A stretch of DNA of 20,757 bases from a virus. Shown piece after piece: positions 2,324-12,799 of the stretch. Each line of letters starts with the position of its first letter. The stretch's first letter is position 1. Both the position numbers and the translations under genes were made by a program. The notes below the pieces were generated by a model that had not been told where the DNA came from, did not search any database, and was given only the letters and a program-made list of their open reading frames with translations. The DNA lies in the IMG/VR virus record IMGVR_UViG_3300049846_001215, positions 1-20,757 of that record. One strand, 5' to 3'.

Positions 2324-2332
2324 TGGTATAAT
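2324..2332 (+). promoter_or_regulatory. Extended -10 promoter for the portal operon
   Basis: TGGTATAAT is a perfect TGN-TATAAT extended -10 box. No good -35 hexamer sits 16-18 bases upstream (the bases there read aaacga). Transcription would start near 2339, giving a leader of about 27 bases before the portal ATG at 2366. It lies in the short gap just after the terminase stop, so it would give portal and the head genes their own transcript. Confidence 0.6.
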
Positions 2333-2345
2333 TATCAACGGGGGT

Positions 2346-2363
2346 GGTTACTATAACGTAACC
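2346..2363 (+). promoter_or_regulatory. Hairpin immediately upstream of the portal start codon
   Basis: GGTTAC (2346-2351) and GTAACC (2358-2363) are perfect inverted repeats around a 6-base TATAAC loop, ending two bases before the portal ATG. In the predicted short leader this is a 6-bp hairpin occupying the place where a Shine-Dalgarno sequence would sit. It may influence initiation or 5' stability; this is inference. Confidence 0.45.
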
Positions 2364-2365
2364 TC

Positions 2366-4180
2366 ATGAGCGATATTTGTGAATTAGTCAGAGAGGCTGA
2401 ACAGAACTACCTCAACGGTACTACCAAGCTCGGCGAATACGTCGAGTGGTCAATGCATGACACCATTGAGCGTATTGACGCATACTCAAATAGCAAGCAC
2501 ACGTCAGGAGCACAGGACTCACTCGGTAGAGAAAAGCCATTTTTCAACATAGTAAGCGCAGCAACGAACATTTGGTATAGAGCGACAGACATAGACCGCA
2601 AGAATGTTCGTGTCCTCCCTTCTAAGACATCAGACGTAGGTATGGCATTTGTAGCCACCGTACACCTTCAGGAGTGGATGCGTCGTGAGCGCTTTGGTAC
2701 ATTCCTCAACCTATGGGGTAGGGCACTCGCTAAGTACGGTTCGGCAGTTGTAAAGTTCGTGCCTAAAGACGGCAGACTTGTACCTAGCGTTATCCCGTGG
2801 AATAGACTTATTGCAGACCCAATACAATTTGACGCTATTCCTACGATAGAGAAGTTTTACATGACTCCGGCGCAGTTGCGTAAGAATAAGTCCTACGACA
2901 GAAAGGTTGTAGACCAACTTATCGAAGCTGAGACAGCACGTAAGACACTAGATGGATTTGATAAAGATAACAAAGCAGACTTCATCGAGATATACGAAGT
3001 ACACGGTGAGCTTGAGAAGGAGTACTTGACTGGTGAAGAGAAGGTAGAGACTGAGAACGAAAAGTACGTACAGCAAATGCACGTAGTTTCTTTCGTAAAG
3101 AATAAGAGCGGTGACTATGATGACTTCACACTCTACAGGGGGCGTGAGTCTAAGCATCCATACATGCTTACCCACCTTATCGAAGAGGATGGGCGTACAC
3201 TTGCTATCGGCGCGGTAGAGTACCTATTCGACTCACAGTGGATGGTCAATCATTCTGTTAAAAACCAAAAAGACACCCTAGATCTTGCATCTAAACTCAT
3301 ATTCCAAACATCCGACTCAAATTATCTAGGGAGAAACGTCCTCACTCAGATTGAGACGGGCGACATATTCGTACACAAAGTAAACGAGCCACTAACCCGC
3401 CTTGCTAACGATAAGCCAGACATTACTGCGCTCCAGAACTTCGGCGCGATGTGGCGCAACCTTGCAGGTGAGCTTACCTCTACCCCAGACGCTTTGAGAG
3501 GCAACACTCTACCATCGGGTACACCATATGCACTCGGCTCATACCTCGGAGAACAGGCTAACAACCTTTTTGAGCAGATGACAGAGAACAAGGGTCTTGC
3601 ACTTGAAGATATGCTCCGAGAGTTCGTCATCCCTCACATTAAGACAAAGATGGACACTAAGGATGAGATTGTCGCAGTCCTCGACGCTGAGCAGATAGCT
3701 GAGGTGGACGCTATGTACGTTCCACGCCAGGCCATTCGTAACTATAACAAACGTGCGATTGATGAAATCATAGCTGGTGGTATCCCATCACCTTTTGACC
3801 CTAACGTAGAGCAGCAGAACGTGCAGAAGTCTATGGCTACTCTCGGCAACAAGCGATCATTTAAGCCAGACGAGCTAGACGAAAAGACGTGGAAAGAGGC
3901 TCTAAAGGACTTGGAGTGGAACTTGGTAGTCGAGGTTACTAACGAGACGACAGACAAACAGGCAGTCCTCACGACCCTTTCAACCGTACTTCAGTCAATA
4001 GCAACCAATCCACAGTTATTGCAAGATCCGAACGCGAAGATGATTTTAGGTGCTATACTTACCGAGACGGGACGTATTAGTCCTATTCAAATAGCTTCTG
4101 TACAGGCTCAAGCACAGCCACAAGCTCCCGCTAACCTGCCAGCAGAAGCACTTAATAAATTACCAGCACAAGCTGCATGA
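2366..4180 (+). CDS. Portal protein
   Basis: This 604-residue protein lies directly downstream of the terminase large subunit and upstream of scaffold-like and capsid genes, the canonical portal position. Portals form the dodecameric ring at one capsid vertex through which terminase pumps DNA and to which the tail connector attaches. The body is long, mixed alpha/beta and portal-like: an N-terminal region with REKPFFNIVSAATNIWYRAT, a central Trp-rich segment, and a Q/A-rich C terminus (from about residue 570) typical of a disordered portal tail. The size falls in the podovirus/P22-like range. No catalytic motif is expected in this family, so the call rests on position, length and general sequence character. 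The stop TGA overlaps the ATG of the next small gene (ATGA). Confidence 0.85.
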   Translation: MSDICELVREAEQNYLNGTTKLGEYVEWSMHDTIERIDAYSNSKHTSGAQDSLGREKPFFNIVSAATNIWYRATDIDRKNVRVLPSKTSDVGMAFVATVHLQEWMRRERFGTFLNLWGRALAKYGSAVVKFVPKDGRLVPSVIPWNRLIADPIQFDAIPTIEKFYMTPAQLRKNKSYDRKVVDQLIEAETARKTLDGFDKDNKADFIEIYEVHGELEKEYLTGEEKVETENEKYVQQMHVVSFVKNKSGDYDDFTLYRGRESKHPYMLTHLIEEDGRTLAIGAVEYLFDSQWMVNHSVKNQKDTLDLASKLIFQTSDSNYLGRNVLTQIETGDIFVHKVNEPLTRLANDKPDITALQNFGAMWRNLAGELTSTPDALRGNTLPSGTPYALGSYLGEQANNLFEQMTENKGLALEDMLREFVIPHIKTKMDTKDEIVAVLDAEQIAEVDAMYVPRQAIRNYNKRAIDEIIAGGIPSPFDPNVEQQNVQKSMATLGNKRSFKPDELDEKTWKEALKDLEWNLVVEVTNETTDKQAVLTTLSTVLQSIATNPQLLQDPNAKMILGAILTETGRISPIQIASVQAQAQPQAPANLPAEALNKLPAQAA

Positions 4181-4694: not shown

Positions 4695-4756
4695 TATCAC
4701 GTTATTCACAACGTCCCCCGCTTAGATGGGGACTTTGTTAGTTGTGTTTCGTGATA
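4695..4756 (+). promoter_or_regulatory. Nested inverted repeat / candidate terminator-attenuator
   Basis: Three nested complementary blocks surround a 9-base loop. The outermost is TATCACG (4695-4701) with CGTGATA (4750-4756). The middle is CACAAC (4707-4712) with GTTGTG (4741-4746). The inner is GTCCCC (4713-4718) with GGGGAC (4728-4733), which is followed by a T-rich run. The inner stem plus T-rich tail could end the portal-operon transcript. The outer arm overlaps the next promoter. Confidence 0.6.
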
Positions 4757-4760
4757 TAAT
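4752..4760 (+). promoter_or_regulatory. Extended -10 promoter for scaffold/capsid genes
   Basis: TGATATAAT matches the TGN-TATAAT extended -10 consensus, with no convincing -35. Its 5' half is the 3' arm of the long inverted repeat at 4695-4756. Initiation would fall near 4767, about 22 bases before the ATG at 4789. It probably drives the scaffold and major capsid genes. Confidence 0.6.
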
Positions 4761-4788
4761 GTAACTATCAGAGTAACCATCTCTAAAA

Positions 4789-5343
4789 ATGGAACCAGAA
4801 ACAACGGACGCTCCTGAAGTCCTTGAAACTCAGGAAACTGACGAGTCTCAGTCACAGACTCAAGATACGCAGGAAGAAACACTTTCCCCCGAGGAAATTG
4901 CAGAACTCAAGCGTAAGGCTTCAGAGCGCGACGAACTAGAGAAGAAGAATAAGCAACTCTACGAGCGCGTAAAGAAGTCGGAAGGCACATCGAAACCGAA
5001 AGAGACTAGAGAGTCTAGCTTGGGCATGAAGGACGTATTGTACTTGGCTAAAGCAGACATTGCACCGGAAGATGTTGACGAGGTTACGACCTACGCAGCA
5101 CGGATGGGCGTAAGTATTGCTGAAGCACACAACTTCTACAAACCTATTCTTTCAGTCCGAGCAGAAGAGCGCAGAACCGCAGATGCAACTCAAACTAGAG
5201 GAGCACGAGGTTCTGCCAAGCAGACAGGTGAAGACCTACTCCAGAAAGCAGAACGTGGGAATGAAACTCCTACAACTGACGAAGGGATTAGGGCTCTCGC
5301 CGAAGCACGGCAAGCTCGTCGATTAGCTGCAAAACAGCGATAA
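4789..5343 (+). CDS. Scaffolding-like protein
   Basis: This 184-residue protein sits immediately before the major capsid gene. The first 45 residues are strongly acidic and rich in Glu, Thr and Gln. Next comes a charged coiled-coil-like helix (AELKRKASERDELEKKNKQL, about residues 38-57), a short ordered segment (MKDVLYLAKADIAPEDVDEV), and a basic, Arg/Ala-rich C terminus (EARQARRLAAKQR). An acidic, coiled-coil protein with a basic C-terminal helix is the usual design of phage scaffolds, which nucleate prohead assembly by binding the coat through the C terminus and are absent from mature virions. No protease motif is visible. It has its own extended -10 promoter; no Shine-Dalgarno sequence precedes the ATG. 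Confidence 0.75.
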   Translation: MEPETTDAPEVLETQETDESQSQTQDTQEETLSPEEIAELKRKASERDELEKKNKQLYERVKKSEGTSKPKETRESSLGMKDVLYLAKADIAPEDVDEVTTYAARMGVSIAEAHNFYKPILSVRAEERRTADATQTRGARGSAKQTGEDLLQKAERGNETPTTDEGIRALAEARQARRLAAKQR

Positions 5344-5365
5344 CGAAAGAGAGCCGTGAGGGGAT

Positions 5366-5384
5366 GGGATATTATTTTTATCCC
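5366..5384 (+). promoter_or_regulatory. Hairpin just upstream of the major capsid start
   Basis: GGGATA (5366-5371) and TATCCC (5379-5384) pair perfectly around a 7-base T-rich loop, ending five bases before the capsid ATG at 5390. There is no Shine-Dalgarno sequence. The hairpin may protect the 5' end of a processed, highly translated capsid mRNA or present the start codon; this is inference. Confidence 0.45.
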
Positions 5385-5389
5385 TTATC

Positions 5390-6256
5390 ATGGCTAACAC
5401 ATTAGGCACAGAATCACTACGTCGCAAATACTTCCAGAGTTCTTTGCAGACACAGCTCCGAAACGCAGTCGTTTGTGAGGAGATTTGTAAGGTAGACCGC
5501 TCAGACCTTAACTACATCGCAAACCCATACGTAACCGCACAGTCTGCTACTATTCAGGCAAAGGTAGGTACGTATACCCCAGCAGCAATGACTGTAACGA
5601 ACGACACACTCACCGTAACGGATGAGGTATGGACTTCGACACACGTCTTTGACTTTGAGACCCTTACATCACAGTTCAATCTCACCGCAGACTTCCTTGA
5701 GGACTTGTCAGCACAGGTTCTTATCGGAGTTGACAAGTTTGTTCTCAACAACCTCTGTGAGGACGGAACTGGTGCATACACCACTCCAGCAGGTGGCTTC
5801 ACGACCGCAGCAAACATTCCAGTTATCATGGCAAACCTTATCTCAAAGGTCGCCGGATACCAGAGTGTATCAATGGGTCGTGGTTCAAACTACTTCCTCG
5901 TGATTGAGAACACAGACCTCGTAGGCTTCATGCAGACGCAGGTTTCGTCAGGATACGCATACGCAGACGCAGCACTCAACTACGGCTTTATGCCAAACTA
6001 CATGGGTGTTGACGTGTACGTCGTTCGCTCTGGTACATTCGTCTCAGCAACTATCGGTTCTACGTCTGTCACGAACTCAGGTCACCGTGTCTTCGGTGTC
6101 AAGGGAGTAGCAACGTACGCTTCACCTCGTGGTCTCCGCTACGAAGAGAAGTCAGTTACCGCTAAGACAGGAAAGGAAATTGTCGCTATCGCACTTGTTG
6201 GATTCAAGCTCTGGGCTACAAACACAGACCTTGTTGTAGACATTACGCTTGCGTAG
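5390..6256 (+). CDS. Major capsid protein
   Basis: This 288-residue protein lies directly after the scaffold-like gene, the standard coat position. Its composition is typical of an HK97-fold capsid protein: no signal peptide, many Thr/Val/Ala residues, an N-terminal arm (residues 1-30), a beta-rich stretch with SATIQAKVGTYTPAAMTVT, a long spine-like helix (TADFLEDLSAQVLIGVDKFV, about residues 99-118), and a C-terminal domain with MGRGSNYFLVIENTDLVGFM and a final strand series. It would form the icosahedral shell. No N-terminal prohead-protease domain is apparent. Its codons are enriched for C-ending forms relative to the genes around 13-15 kb, consistent with high expression. The fold call is inference from context and composition. 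Confidence 0.85.
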   Translation: MANTLGTESLRRKYFQSSLQTQLRNAVVCEEICKVDRSDLNYIANPYVTAQSATIQAKVGTYTPAAMTVTNDTLTVTDEVWTSTHVFDFETLTSQFNLTADFLEDLSAQVLIGVDKFVLNNLCEDGTGAYTTPAGGFTTAANIPVIMANLISKVAGYQSVSMGRGSNYFLVIENTDLVGFMQTQVSSGYAYADAALNYGFMPNYMGVDVYVVRSGTFVSATIGSTSVTNSGHRVFGVKGVATYASPRGLRYEEKSVTAKTGKEIVAIALVGFKLWATNTDLVVDITLA

Positions 6257-6263
6257 TTACTAG

Positions 6264-6330
6264 CCAGCTCATTATGGGCTGGTTGGAGGCATCCATCCCC
6301 GCCTCCACTCAGCCCGTAATAGCTAACTAA
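6264..6330 (+). ncRNA. Two-hairpin intergenic RNA element, copy 1
   Basis: Right after the capsid stop, CCAGCTC (6264-6270) pairs with GGGCTGG (6276-6282) with one G-U pair. Then GGAGGC (6285-6290) pairs with GCCTCC (6301-6306), and AGCTAACTAA lies at 6321-6330, six bases before the ATG at 6337. An alternative long pairing also exists between 6266-6280 and 6311-6324. A second copy of the same architecture occurs at 7064-7121, with compensatory base-pair changes, supporting a real RNA structure. It may be a processing site, terminator or translation-control leader. Confidence 0.6.
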
Positions 6331-6336
6331 CACACA

Positions 6337-6501
6337 ATGGCAAAAGAAAAGGAAACCGAGGTAAAGGAAGAAGCAAAGGTATCGTCACCCCGCGAAATTG
6401 CATGGGAGGCACACCTCGCTTCATACGAGAAGAAGAATCCTAAGAAATTCGCAGTAAAGAAGGCTCGCGGGGAGTTCGACAAGATTCCAGCATCTTTCTA
6501 G
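6337..6501 (+). CDS. Small charged hypothetical protein (54 aa)
   Basis: This 54-residue, highly charged protein (MAKEKETEVKEEAK at the N terminus, KKNPKKFAVKKARGEFDK in the middle) lies between the capsid gene and a membrane-anchored virion-like protein. It starts with ATG six bases after the AGCTAACTAA box of the two-hairpin element and ends in TAG. No domain is recognised. The central IAWEAHLASYEKKNPKKF segment may form one helix. Small basic proteins just after the coat gene are sometimes head-decoration or completion proteins, but that is only positional. Confidence 0.6.
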   Translation: MAKEKETEVKEEAKVSSPREIAWEAHLASYEKKNPKKFAVKKARGEFDKIPASF

Positions 6502-6529
6502 CAAGTATTACTAACTAGTCCGATTACAA

Positions 6530-7057
6530 ATGGACATCAAAAACATCGCAGTCTCAGCAGGAACAGCTCTCATCATTGCACTCGTTGCAGTATGGGGTTT
6601 TGCTCCTGAAGCACAGATTGTACGTGAAGTGCAGAAGTTAGGTGCTGTTGCAAGCCCTGACATCCAGTCTGATTGGCTTCGCTTTGGTGGTGTTACTCGC
6701 TTTGCATACGCAACGAATAACCTCACGCAAGGTTCAGCAACCGTCTGTTCTATTCAGTCTCCCGCAGCTACTTCGACGCTCGTTTCAGGTGGTATCCGCT
6801 TTGACGTAGCATCATCGACACAGTGGCTTGTAGAGATTGGTAAGGCAACGACTAACTCTGCTACTACTACACTCCTTGGTACAGGAATCATTACTGCGAA
6901 TGGTCAGGGAACTATCCTTGCATCATCGACGTTTGGTCTCGGTGTAGACCCAGTAGTTGTATTCGCTCCTAACACGTACTTCAACGTGAAGGCTCCTACG
7001 GCCGGTGGCGGTGCACCATCAGGTCACTGTCACGCAATCTTCGAGACGTATCAATAG
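6530..7057 (+). CDS. N-terminally membrane-anchored beta-rich virion-type protein
   Basis: This 175-residue protein has an N-terminal hydrophobic segment (SAGTALIIALVAVWGFA, about residues 9-25), then a Ser/Thr-rich, probably all-beta domain. That domain contains a VCSIQSPAATSTL stretch, repeated short strands, and the C-terminal signature VFAPNTYFNVKAPTAGG followed by GHCHAIFETYQ. I associate this style (TM anchor, Ala/Thr/Ser beta sandwich, C-terminal PNTY and a final Cys-containing strand) with minor structural proteins of uncultivated phages, but the role is unproven. The hydrophobic N terminus is unusual for a cytoplasmically assembled virion protein. It could instead be an envelope protein. 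Confidence 0.7.
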   Translation: MDIKNIAVSAGTALIIALVAVWGFAPEAQIVREVQKLGAVASPDIQSDWLRFGGVTRFAYATNNLTQGSATVCSIQSPAATSTLVSGGIRFDVASSTQWLVEIGKATTNSATTTLLGTGIITANGQGTILASSTFGLGVDPVVVFAPNTYFNVKAPTAGGGAPSGHCHAIFETYQ

Positions 7058-7063
7058 TCTCAT

Positions 7064-7121
7064 CCAGTCCTAGTGGGCTGGGTGGTGAGCGCGAAACTCG
7101 TACTCACCTTTAGCTCACTAA
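7064..7121 (+). ncRNA. Two-hairpin intergenic RNA element, copy 2
   Basis: CCAGTCC (7064-7070) pairs with GGGCTGG (7075-7081, one G-U). GGTGAG (7084-7089) pairs with CTCACC (7103-7108). AGCTCACTAA lies at 7112-7121, eight bases before the ATG at 7130. GTGAGC (7085-7090) can alternatively pair with GCTCAC (7113-7118), so two mutually exclusive folds are possible. The order and geometry match copy 1 at 6264-6330. It also excludes an upstream start at 7073 for the next gene, because that would put the element inside the coding region. Confidence 0.6.
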
Positions 7122-7875: not shown

Positions 7876-8622
7876 ATGCAATTCTCAGACCCCACAAACA
7901 AAAACGGTATCATCCAGACTATAGAGTTTTGGTGTGGTATGTCTGATGGTGAAATTTCCGGGGACGCCACCAAGTTAAGGATATTTACCTCACGTGTAAA
8001 CTCTGGTTTTGACAGCGTTTTACCCCTAGTCCTCCCACGTACTAACGGAATCAAGTGGGATGACCCAAACCACACCGATCTGCCCGTAGGGACTATAAAC
8101 CTAGTCTCAGGACAGGGGAATTACACGGTAGACGAAGACGACAACTCGCTAGATATTTTGAGAATAATAAAGGTGAAGATACTTACCTCACCAACGGCGA
8201 CACAATACTCAGACGTTGAACAAATAGACAGTTCAGACGTTGATGTGTTCAACGCGATGAGCCCAAATTCTGCTGATACTGGTATCCCCACCAAGGTGCT
8301 GATTCGCGGGAACACGTTCCACTGTTTGCCGAAACCTAACTACAACGCCACAGCGGGCGCGAAACTTTTCTTTGAACGCGAACAGTCATACTTTGCATCA
8401 TCCGATACCACCAAAGAGCCTGGTATTCCTAAGCCATTCCACGAACTCCTAGCACTCTACCCAGCACTTGATTGGCTACTTATCTACAAGCCTGACAACA
8501 CATCATTGATTAGTCGTGTAGAGGCACGGATAACCCATCGAGAGAAGGAACTGAGCGATATGAACGACAGACGCTACAGGACAAAGAACACAATGACACC
8601 TAACGTAGAGGACAATAGATAA
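7876..8622 (+). CDS. Head-to-tail connector/adaptor-like virion protein
   Basis: This 248-residue protein lacks a signal peptide, unlike its neighbours. It carries the layout of a widespread phage structural family I recognise by pattern: an N-terminal helix region (GIIQTIEFWCGM, then SGDATKLRIFTSRVN), a KWDDPNHTDLPVGTINLVSG turn, a beta core with YTVDEDDNSLDILRIIKVKI and the IDSSDVD segment, a GNTFHCLPKPNY strand, then FASSDTTKEPGIPKPFHELL and a C-terminal helical pair (SRVEARITHREKELSDMNDR). Proteins of this kind occur downstream of the coat gene and are regarded as head-tail adaptors. The assignment is by recall of the family pattern and context. Confidence 0.65.
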   Translation: MQFSDPTNKNGIIQTIEFWCGMSDGEISGDATKLRIFTSRVNSGFDSVLPLVLPRTNGIKWDDPNHTDLPVGTINLVSGQGNYTVDEDDNSLDILRIIKVKILTSPTATQYSDVEQIDSSDVDVFNAMSPNSADTGIPTKVLIRGNTFHCLPKPNYNATAGAKLFFEREQSYFASSDTTKEPGIPKPFHELLALYPALDWLLIYKPDNTSLISRVEARITHREKELSDMNDRRYRTKNTMTPNVEDNR

Positions 8623-10798: not shown

Positions 10799-12271
10799 AT
10801 GCAAAAACTCTTTGAACTCACCTCGCAGGACTGGATGAAGGGGCTTGCTATATCGGGCCACTACCCCTCAACTGGTATTTTTACTGAAGCGAAGGGTATA
10901 AACCCCTTCCTCTCTCCATTCTATGGGCAGTCAGATATGGGTCTTTTACAGACATCAGCGGCAGCACAACAGGTCGGGGTGGTTGTAGATACGGTGCTTG
11001 GGGGGTGGTTTGATGGTGCGGCGTTCAAAGCCTACTTCATAGGTGACGATGGCCACTTCTACGACCAAAATACATCTTCGGACAATGCCCCAACAGACTT
11101 GCGCTCTGGCACACCTATTGCAACAGCGGGTGAGGGCGTTTGCATCTATCAAATAAATGGTGGAACTCGGTACCTCTACTATGCTCGTGAGTCTTTCATA
11201 GGGCGTTGGGATTTGTCAGGCTCATATCCTACAGGATGGGACGATACATACATCGGGACTGCTGGAACAATAAGTACATCAGAAATGCGTGCCACAAAGA
11301 TACGCAACTTTCACCCATTTGTGGGGAATATGTACTGGACTAACAAGGACAGAATTGGTGCGCTGGTGGACCTCGGCACAGGTTCTTTTGGCGCGTCTAA
11401 CGTCATCCCATCAGCACTAGACCTCCCTTCTAACATGACAGCGGTGGACATAGACGATGATGGATACTACCTCGTCGTGGCTGCGACAGAGAATGTTACC
11501 TCTGGGAATACGTCAATTAACACAATCAATAAAATATACTTCTGGGACACTAACTCTAACTCGTGGCAGAGAGAGTGGACTATTCATACCCCATTCATTG
11601 CGGCCATTACGTCTATGGGTGGGCTTATGTACGCCCTATGTGCTGATGGGTTGTATGCCTTTTCATTCAACACCCCACCACAGCTCGTCATCCCGTTTTC
11701 CACAGCAGACTCTCCATCGGCCACCGGTGGTGAAGTACCAACCTCTCACCTACTTGATGAAAAAAACGGCACCCTCTATTGGGCTTCAGCAGACGGGTGT
11801 GTCTCAGCATACGGTTCTCCTATTCCTGGGATGTCTCCAAGGTTCTTCAAGCCATTTAACTCAATAGACGCACTCACAAGACTAGTTTTATGGAGTGGCA
11901 AGCTCAAAGCATACATCTCAACAGCTAATGATAAATACGGGTTTGTACTAAACAGCTCTGGTGGTGCCACCAGCCTTGCGGCAAAGACACTCTACGTCCC
12001 ATTGGGGAGGAAGTTTGATATAAAGCGCATTGAGGTAATGCTCGGAGAGCCATTAGTGTCTGGCGACTCGCTAGACATAGACGTACAAAGTGACGAGGAC
12101 ACGTCGGCAACAGATTGGGGTGCTATGTCCTTTGCATTACATGGCGCAGTACGCTCTAAAATGCTTCCGGGCGCATTTAAAGCAGAAAATCTTAGACTTA
12201 TACTTAACTTTAATGGGGGCAATGTCAAGATAAAGAAAATCGCTGTGTACGGGGAACCAGTAACTATATGA
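10799..12271 (+). CDS. Probable beta-propeller virion/tail protein
   Basis: This 490-residue protein starts at ATG 10799, one base after the LamG-protein stop. A TTG at 10787 in the same frame is an unlikely start. There is no signal peptide. The sequence is a long series of beta strands with Trp/Tyr and Gly turns: RYLYYARESFIGRWDLSG, NMYWTNKDRIGALVDLGTG, KIYFWDTNSNSWQREWTI, GLYAFSF, GTLYWASADGCVSAYG. This spacing of W-D/Y-W blades suggests a propeller-like domain. The last 110 residues (from AKTLYVPLGRKFDIKRIEVM) look like a separate C-terminal beta sandwich. Such proteins often follow connector genes in uncultivated phages. A tail-associated or receptor-binding role is plausible but unproven. 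Confidence 0.65.
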   Translation: MQKLFELTSQDWMKGLAISGHYPSTGIFTEAKGINPFLSPFYGQSDMGLLQTSAAAQQVGVVVDTVLGGWFDGAAFKAYFIGDDGHFYDQNTSSDNAPTDLRSGTPIATAGEGVCIYQINGGTRYLYYARESFIGRWDLSGSYPTGWDDTYIGTAGTISTSEMRATKIRNFHPFVGNMYWTNKDRIGALVDLGTGSFGASNVIPSALDLPSNMTAVDIDDDGYYLVVAATENVTSGNTSINTINKIYFWDTNSNSWQREWTIHTPFIAAITSMGGLMYALCADGLYAFSFNTPPQLVIPFSTADSPSATGGEVPTSHLLDEKNGTLYWASADGCVSAYGSPIPGMSPRFFKPFNSIDALTRLVLWSGKLKAYISTANDKYGFVLNSSGGATSLAAKTLYVPLGRKFDIKRIEVMLGEPLVSGDSLDIDVQSDEDTSATDWGAMSFALHGAVRSKMLPGAFKAENLRLILNFNGGNVKIKKIAVYGEPVTI

Positions 12272-12780: not shown

Positions 12781-12789
12781 TGGTATAAT
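12781..12789 (+). promoter_or_regulatory. Extended -10 promoter for the ejection-protein genes
   Basis: TGGTATAAT begins at the base after the preceding stop. With initiation expected about seven bases past the box (near 12796), the mRNA would start only three to four bases before the ATG at 12800, so the transcript would be almost leaderless. No -35 hexamer is evident. Confidence 0.6.
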
Positions 12790-12799
12790 AGGTAATAAA

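Follow-up and report, generated by a model that had tools for sequence, protein, structure and literature searches.

Gene order and predicted folds

The window, as we call the whole stretch of DNA analysed, is a 20.8-kb (20,757-nucleotide) fragment of a tailed phage taken from a virus record. The terminase gene lies at 1087-2319 and the portal gene at 2366-4180 (plus strand), the latter named from its position between terminase and scaffold and carrying no database name; the scaffold gene (4789-5343) was likewise assigned by position. The major capsid protein (MCP) gene (5390-6256, plus strand) ends in TAG and was recognized from a weak PHROG major head match and from its relatives. Downstream of it, a 54-aa gene and then a 175-aa gene precede an SU10-type adaptor gene (7876-8622). 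Two related hairpin elements lie in this region, copy 1 in the gap 3' of the MCP gene and copy 2 in the gap 3' of the 175-aa gene. A search for annotated relatives retrieved no annotated phage that encodes this MCP. Every locus read has TAA or TAG as the MCP stop codon and none has TGA, which closes both the terminase and the portal gene in the window. At three places in the window (2324-2365, 4749-4788 and 12787-12799) a gene starts a few bases past a TATAAT or extended -10 motif, without a Shine-Dalgarno sequence, as if the transcripts were nearly leaderless.

Both elements are built from the same segments on the plus strand. Copy 1 opens with segment 1 (CCAGCTC, 6264-6270), followed by segment 2 together with loop 1 (ATTATGGGCTGG, 6271-6282), and the first stem pairs CCAGCTC (6264-6270) with GGGCTGG (6276-6282). 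An inner stem, stem 3, and its apical loop (6284-6307) come next, with TGGAGGC (6284-6290) and GCCTCCA (6301-6307) enclosing the loop ATCCATCCCC (6291-6300), which is antisense to leader targets described below. Segment 4 (6309-6320) completes the element as the partner of segment 2 in a long hairpin, to which pairing of 6266-6269 with 6321-6324 adds an outer extension. Segment 2 is common to both competing helices, and segment 1, its partner in the small hairpin, is displaced once segments 2 and 4 pair. Copy 2 has segment 1 (CCAGTCC, 7064-7070), segment 2 with loop 1 (7071-7082), a first stem of CCAGTCC (7064-7070) and GGGCTGG (7075-7081), an inner stem (7084-7108; GGTGAG 7084-7089 with CTCACC 7103-7108) closed by a short apical loop that has no recurrent target, and segment 4 (7109-7120).

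Compared with dinucleotide shuffles, copy 1 folds with a z score of -6.9 and copy 2 with -3.9 (0 of 200 shuffles in each case). The predicted minimum is one long hairpin, with segments 2 and 4 paired on the outside (6271-6282 with 6309-6320 in copy 1, 7071-7082 with 7109-7120 in copy 2) and the inner stem nested within, and not two separate hairpins. When each fold of copy 1 was forced, two hairpins gave -26.5, the long hairpin -31.8 and the long hairpin with its outer extension -38.6 kcal/mol; for copy 2 the two hairpins gave -28.1 and the long hairpin -29.9 kcal/mol. Because the first stem and the long helix use the same segment 2, the two compete, and by these calculated energies the long hairpin is the stable state of each copy. 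The initial annotation of this DNA had described both elements as two-hairpin leaders, and their stems, G-U pairs and both-sided changes are all present where it placed them. The label is nevertheless incomplete, as the long hairpin is the predicted minimum and excludes the first stem; the alternative pairing that the annotation had listed for copy 1 becomes that minimum once extended to 6271-6282 and 6309-6320. Its AGCTNACTAA box before an ATG overlaps segment 4 in part and is not conserved in relatives, and the idea that the elements substitute for Shine-Dalgarno signals found no support for these two.

Stable GC-rich hairpins between genes also suggest transcription terminators or attenuators, and termination was among the roles first proposed. 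The stems lack a following U-tract, however, and neither element was among the terminator-like sites in a scan of the window, so that we regard such a function as barely credible. Stimulation of stop-codon readthrough or frameshifting was considered because the structures begin about 12 nt past the stop; it was rejected because in the window the frame beyond the MCP stop ends where the hairpin ends, and because both TAA and TAG serve as stops.

Recurrence in related phages and the two-state base

Searches with the MCP returned 4 and then 32 viral loci together with 4 genome-bin loci, and later a second batch. The loci comprise a discovery set of 31 and an independent set of 49, non-duplicate and about 80 in all, with start codons assigned from the reading frame and folds taken as minimum free energy predictions. 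One relative lies in a contig binned as Parcubacteria; the TIGR-Tas guide arrays known from the Parcubacteria literature were considered, and no array is present here.

In nearly every locus a long hairpin stands directly 3' of the MCP gene (site 1), with a median duplex of 26 predicted pairs, and most loci carry another hairpin 3' of the counterpart of the 175-aa gene (site 2). Median z scores against shuffles were -6.7 at site 1 (n=33) and -3.6 at site 2 (n=28). An alignment of 15 sequences has changes on both sides in 12 of its 14 pairs, and 89.5% of its cells pair; none of 500 shuffles attained any of five measures. The covariation that the initial annotation had deduced from the two copies therefore extends across relatives, and the fold is found again 3' of the MCP gene in about 80 non-duplicate relatives. 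These phages support two proposals of that annotation, selection on RNA structure and a switch between alternative pairings. Of 77 informative loci, 68 favoured folding of the sense strand over its complement (68:9, p 1e-11). The stretches compared had been bounded by means of the sense-strand fold; in unselected windows of 85 nt the ratios were 22:9 and 21:5. Since the sense strand folds better, the entity under selection is most likely the RNA and not a DNA cruciform. The site-2 elements of two loci (L001, 6664-6735; L002, 6650-6722) are near-identical, and the genes that flank them have diverged.

Pairing between segments 1 and 2 was scored for each locus against segments mixed between loci. 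Own complementarity at site 1 was 18.5 versus 11.6 across loci (z 13.5); site 2 gave z 8.1, and the validation set z 10.6, where 31 of 45 loci reached 6 bp or more. Segment 1 is absent from several distant members. At the level of complementarity, the comparison shows the base of the hairpin to be a two-state switch, in which segment 2 pairs with either segment 1 or segment 4. An H-type pseudoknot, in which loop 1 would pair with segment 4 while segments 1 and 2 stay paired, is possible in part; competition is the simpler reading because segment 4 pairs well into segment 2. One relative (L027, 5873-6330, compared with L018, 5873-5960) carries an extra ORF (5903-6253) between segments 1 and 2, in loop 1 of the small hairpin, with the remaining element intact downstream. 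By eye, the start of its translation is zinc-finger/HNH-like, and the arrangement is probably a natural split of the switch by a mobile gene.

The long hairpin begins a median of 12 nt past the MCP stop (10 to 16 nt in 54 of 78 loci), which is about the edge of a terminating ribosome, and segment 1 falls within that stretch. A ribosome ending at the MCP stop could thus mask segment 1, let segments 2 and 4 pair and so set the expression of the next gene. We find such translation coupling rather unlikely as the main function, as segment 4 holds no ribosome-binding site, several phages have no segment 1, and short gaps between the genes could be enough to explain the spacing.

Complementarity between the apical loop and head-gene leaders

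The apical loops at site 1 mostly read CCRYC. In the window, the loop at 6291-6300 is complementary to a target, T (GGGGATGGG, 5360-5368, plus strand), in the MCP leader, a G-rich segment upstream of the gene and about 900 nt 5' of the loop; its part CCATCCCC is complementary to GGGGATGG at 5360 and to GGGGGTGG at 2340. This loop is the key recognition part of copy 1, and its partners upstream in the MCP and portal leaders had escaped the initial annotation. We scored the pairing of each loop with its own leader against cross-locus permutation (20000 permutations). In the 31 discovery loci the own score was 22.9 versus 15.7 (z 11.6, 0/20000). Because the complementarity had first been noticed by eye in these loci, 49 further loci were scored by the same procedure, and their own score was 22.5 versus 16.7 (z 12.1, 0/20000), with 12.3 in the reverse-complement (reversed-leader) control; all 80 loci together gave z 18.4. 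They hold 63 distinct target/loop pairs, such as GGAATGGGG/CCCCATTCC, AAATAGGTGAAT/ATTCACCTATTT and TCGACGGGGGA/TCCCCCGTCGA. Thinning the set as a check on relatedness left z scores of 11.4, 5.7, 5.9 and 4.7 at 47, 24, 14 and 10 loci, the last with MCP identity below 58%, and when loops were swapped with those of the nearest relative the own pairing was better in 44 cases and worse in 6 (p 3e-8). When the whole 105-nt 3' region was searched for the best complement to the MCP leader, 65 of 80 loci had it no more than 4 nt from the apex of the hairpin. Co-evolution of the loop with T is well supported by these comparisons.

In about 10 of the 80 loci, the 100 nt next to the MCP gene contain no convincing T. 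Two loci (L020 and L031) have a candidate target some 670-800 nt upstream of MCP and in front of a different gene, which looks like the outcome of a gene insertion separating the leader from MCP. In another (L035), 17 nt near the end of the portal gene and 1074 nt upstream of the MCP start (GGACAACCGGTGGTAAA) are perfectly complementary to the loop and upper stem of the hairpin, a match far longer than the usual one.

The MCP leader of the window also contains a hairpin (5366-5384, plus strand; GGGATA 5366-5371 with TATCCC 5379-5384) whose 5' arm overlaps T. T lies 12-45 nt upstream of MCP in 56 loci. A hairpin between this target and the MCP start is conserved among them (z 9.6): it is present in 50, and its 5' arm takes in at least 2 nt of T in 45. 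Given this overlap, loop pairing and the leader hairpin are mutually exclusive.

A second target of the loop (CGGGGGTGG, 2339-2347, plus strand) lies in the portal leader after TGGTATAAT (2324-2332), with a portal leader hairpin (GGTTAC 2346-2351, GTAACC 2358-2363) on its 3' side. Across loci the loop matched the portal leader with z 6.6, often in the arrangement T, 5-10 nt, ATG, and the junction of the portal gene with the next gene 3' of it with z 9.9; in the window and in one relative (L025) the portal-leader target is directly 3' of TATAAT. Portal targets are clear in only about one quarter of the loci. The loop did not match the leaders of the adaptor (z 1.3), terminase (z -0.2) or 175-aa (z 1.9) genes. 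In whole-locus scans, leader matches numbered 46 against 10.4 expected and coding matches, near chance, 101 against 82.5, so that enrichment was clear in leaders only. The apical loops of site 2 were scanned as well and yielded no recurrent target.

T and the loop could instead be sites, in opposite orientations, of a phage DNA-binding protein, their joint change then reflecting shifts in protein specificity and not pairing. Such sites would fit the exact Watson-Crick matches that make up most pairs, the few deviations with no G-U preference, and the several plus-oriented copies per genome. The strand test was neutral, with 33 G-U and 33 A-C among the non-Watson-Crick cells of the loop:leader register and 5 versus 2 interrupting mismatches in MCP leaders. 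We nonetheless consider a protein site very improbable: the inverted copy coincides with the tip of a conserved hairpin in those 65 of 80 loci, this hairpin forms better on the sense strand, and T is confined to the leaders of portal, the next gene and MCP, where it overlaps an RNA leader hairpin.

RNA processing, which the initial annotation had also raised, is a possible role for the elements. The hairpins might even do no more than direct RNase III processing of the late mRNA or stabilise its 3' ends, the complementarity of the loop having no regulatory role and the paired segments 1 and 2 being the 3'-terminal hairpin that remains after cleavage. The duplex length (median 26 predicted pairs) fits RNase III, site 2 has the same layout with loops that lack a recurrent target, and the pairing of segments 1 and 2 is conserved at both sites. 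As a sole function this is improbable, because it leaves the co-evolution of loop and leader unexplained; it is compatible with leader pairing as a second role.

Proposed regulation and relation to known systems

We conclude, with a probability of about 0.7, that the element 3' of MCP acts as a regulatory hairpin in the sense-strand RNA, through pairing with head-gene leaders. The pairing is well supported; the regulatory sign and the role of the switch are what we propose. Once MCP and its 3' hairpin are transcribed, the loop would bind T on the same mRNA; this would open the leader hairpin, free an AU-rich start region with no obvious Shine-Dalgarno sequence and so activate MCP translation. 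In portal leaders T usually precedes the start codon by 5-10 nt; pairing there should prevent initiation and would in this way help to hold portal low and MCP high. The switch between segments 1 and 2 probably serves processing, since the long duplex suits RNase III; after cleavage the MCP mRNA could end in the hairpin of segments 1 and 2, and the released stem-loop could act in trans. Masking of segment 1 by the terminating ribosome would be an alternative role for the base. Copy 2 (7064-7120) has the switch but lacks a recurrent target. In its full form, in which one loop activates the capsid gene in cis and represses portal and the next gene, thereby setting stoichiometry, and the refolding base couples this to RNA processing or translation termination, the model is tentative and on the whole rather doubtful.

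The same pairing could have the opposite sign, with the 3' loop repressing MCP translation, triggering RNase III decay, or both, as an autogenous negative feedback. We hold this to be a serious if lesser possibility. We found a single established precedent for pairing between the 5' and 3' UTRs of a bacterial mRNA, and that one represses: in Staphylococcus aureus icaR, a 3'UTR motif, UCCCCUG, pairs with the 5'UTR of its own mRNA, covers the Shine-Dalgarno sequence and controls translation and RNase III decay (PMC3868564). Portal targets likewise occupy the position of ribosome binding. Against repression of MCP, T mostly lies 12-45 nt before the start, outside the usual Shine-Dalgarno position, pairing would open the hairpin that adjoins the MCP start codon, and one would hardly expect the head protein in greatest demand to be under constitutive repression in cis. 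The nearest tested precedent being repressive, we put activation of MCP only somewhat above repression in likelihood.

The element shares with icaR a C-rich 3' motif complementary to a G-rich 5' leader of the same mRNA and a long duplex suited to RNase III. In contrast to icaR, the motif is the apical loop of a hairpin, the MCP target is followed by a leader hairpin and recurs at other head genes, a two-state switch forms the base, and the arrangement is found in phages, conserved in about 80 genomes. Because coverage of the Shine-Dalgarno position was looked for and not found for MCP, portal targets alone lying there, we file the element as a novel form of base-pairing mRNA control and not as a member of the icaR kind. 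Rfam 15 covariance models gave no match at the gathering cut-off in the whole window, and only sub-threshold matches in the element region and in six relatives; these, Rubella_3 on copy 2 among them, are at chance level and were dismissed. Searches of open-access papers turned up no report of such an element, although absence there is not proof. The initial annotation knew of no described class with this layout, and we too found no Rfam family and no described phage system.

Other systems resemble the element in part. Trans-acting sRNAs of Firmicutes with C-rich loops use a C-rich hairpin loop against the G-rich translation-initiation regions of several mRNAs; the loop here is also C-rich and complementary to several G-rich leaders. 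Unlike those sRNAs, the hairpin belongs to an intergenic region of the MCP operon, with no separate sRNA gene, promoter or terminator known, and each phage has a target and a loop of its own. Attenuators of the trp type have mutually exclusive pairings of consecutive segments beside a translated region, as does this element, which differs in lacking a terminator and leader peptide and in following a large structural gene. RNase III sites in T7 mRNA are intergenic hairpins that may leave the transcript with a protective hairpin at its 3' end; ours likewise lie between genes, with a predicted duplex that is a candidate for cleavage, but their apical loop pairs with leaders and their base is a conserved two-state one. 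In the 3' cap-independent translation enhancers of plant viruses, the loop of a 3' hairpin kisses the 5' leader over a long distance, much as proposed here. Those enhancers, however, belong to RNA viruses of eukaryotes and recruit ribosomes or factors.

Tailed phages need capsid proteins by the hundred but only about one portal ring. The co-evolving loop and leader point to an undescribed RNA circuit governing head-protein production; if this is true, control of the capsid:portal ratio at the RNA level by such a pair would be an unusual answer to that need. The phage group has no cultured members, and the elements form an RNA family that is strongly conserved within it. The pairing code varies so much between phages that every genome is its own test.

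The annotated metagenomic phage MW202577.1 (L118) has a portal protein only 23% identical. By eye, the gap 3' of its likely MCP gene (about 10893-11020) appears to contain the same two-state hairpin, ACCCTACTT/AAGTGGGGT versus TCTAAGTGGGGTA/TACCCCGCTTAGA, together with stem 3; no G-rich leader target was found in this phage. Given this likeness in a phage with so distant a portal, the switch may predate this MCP group by far.
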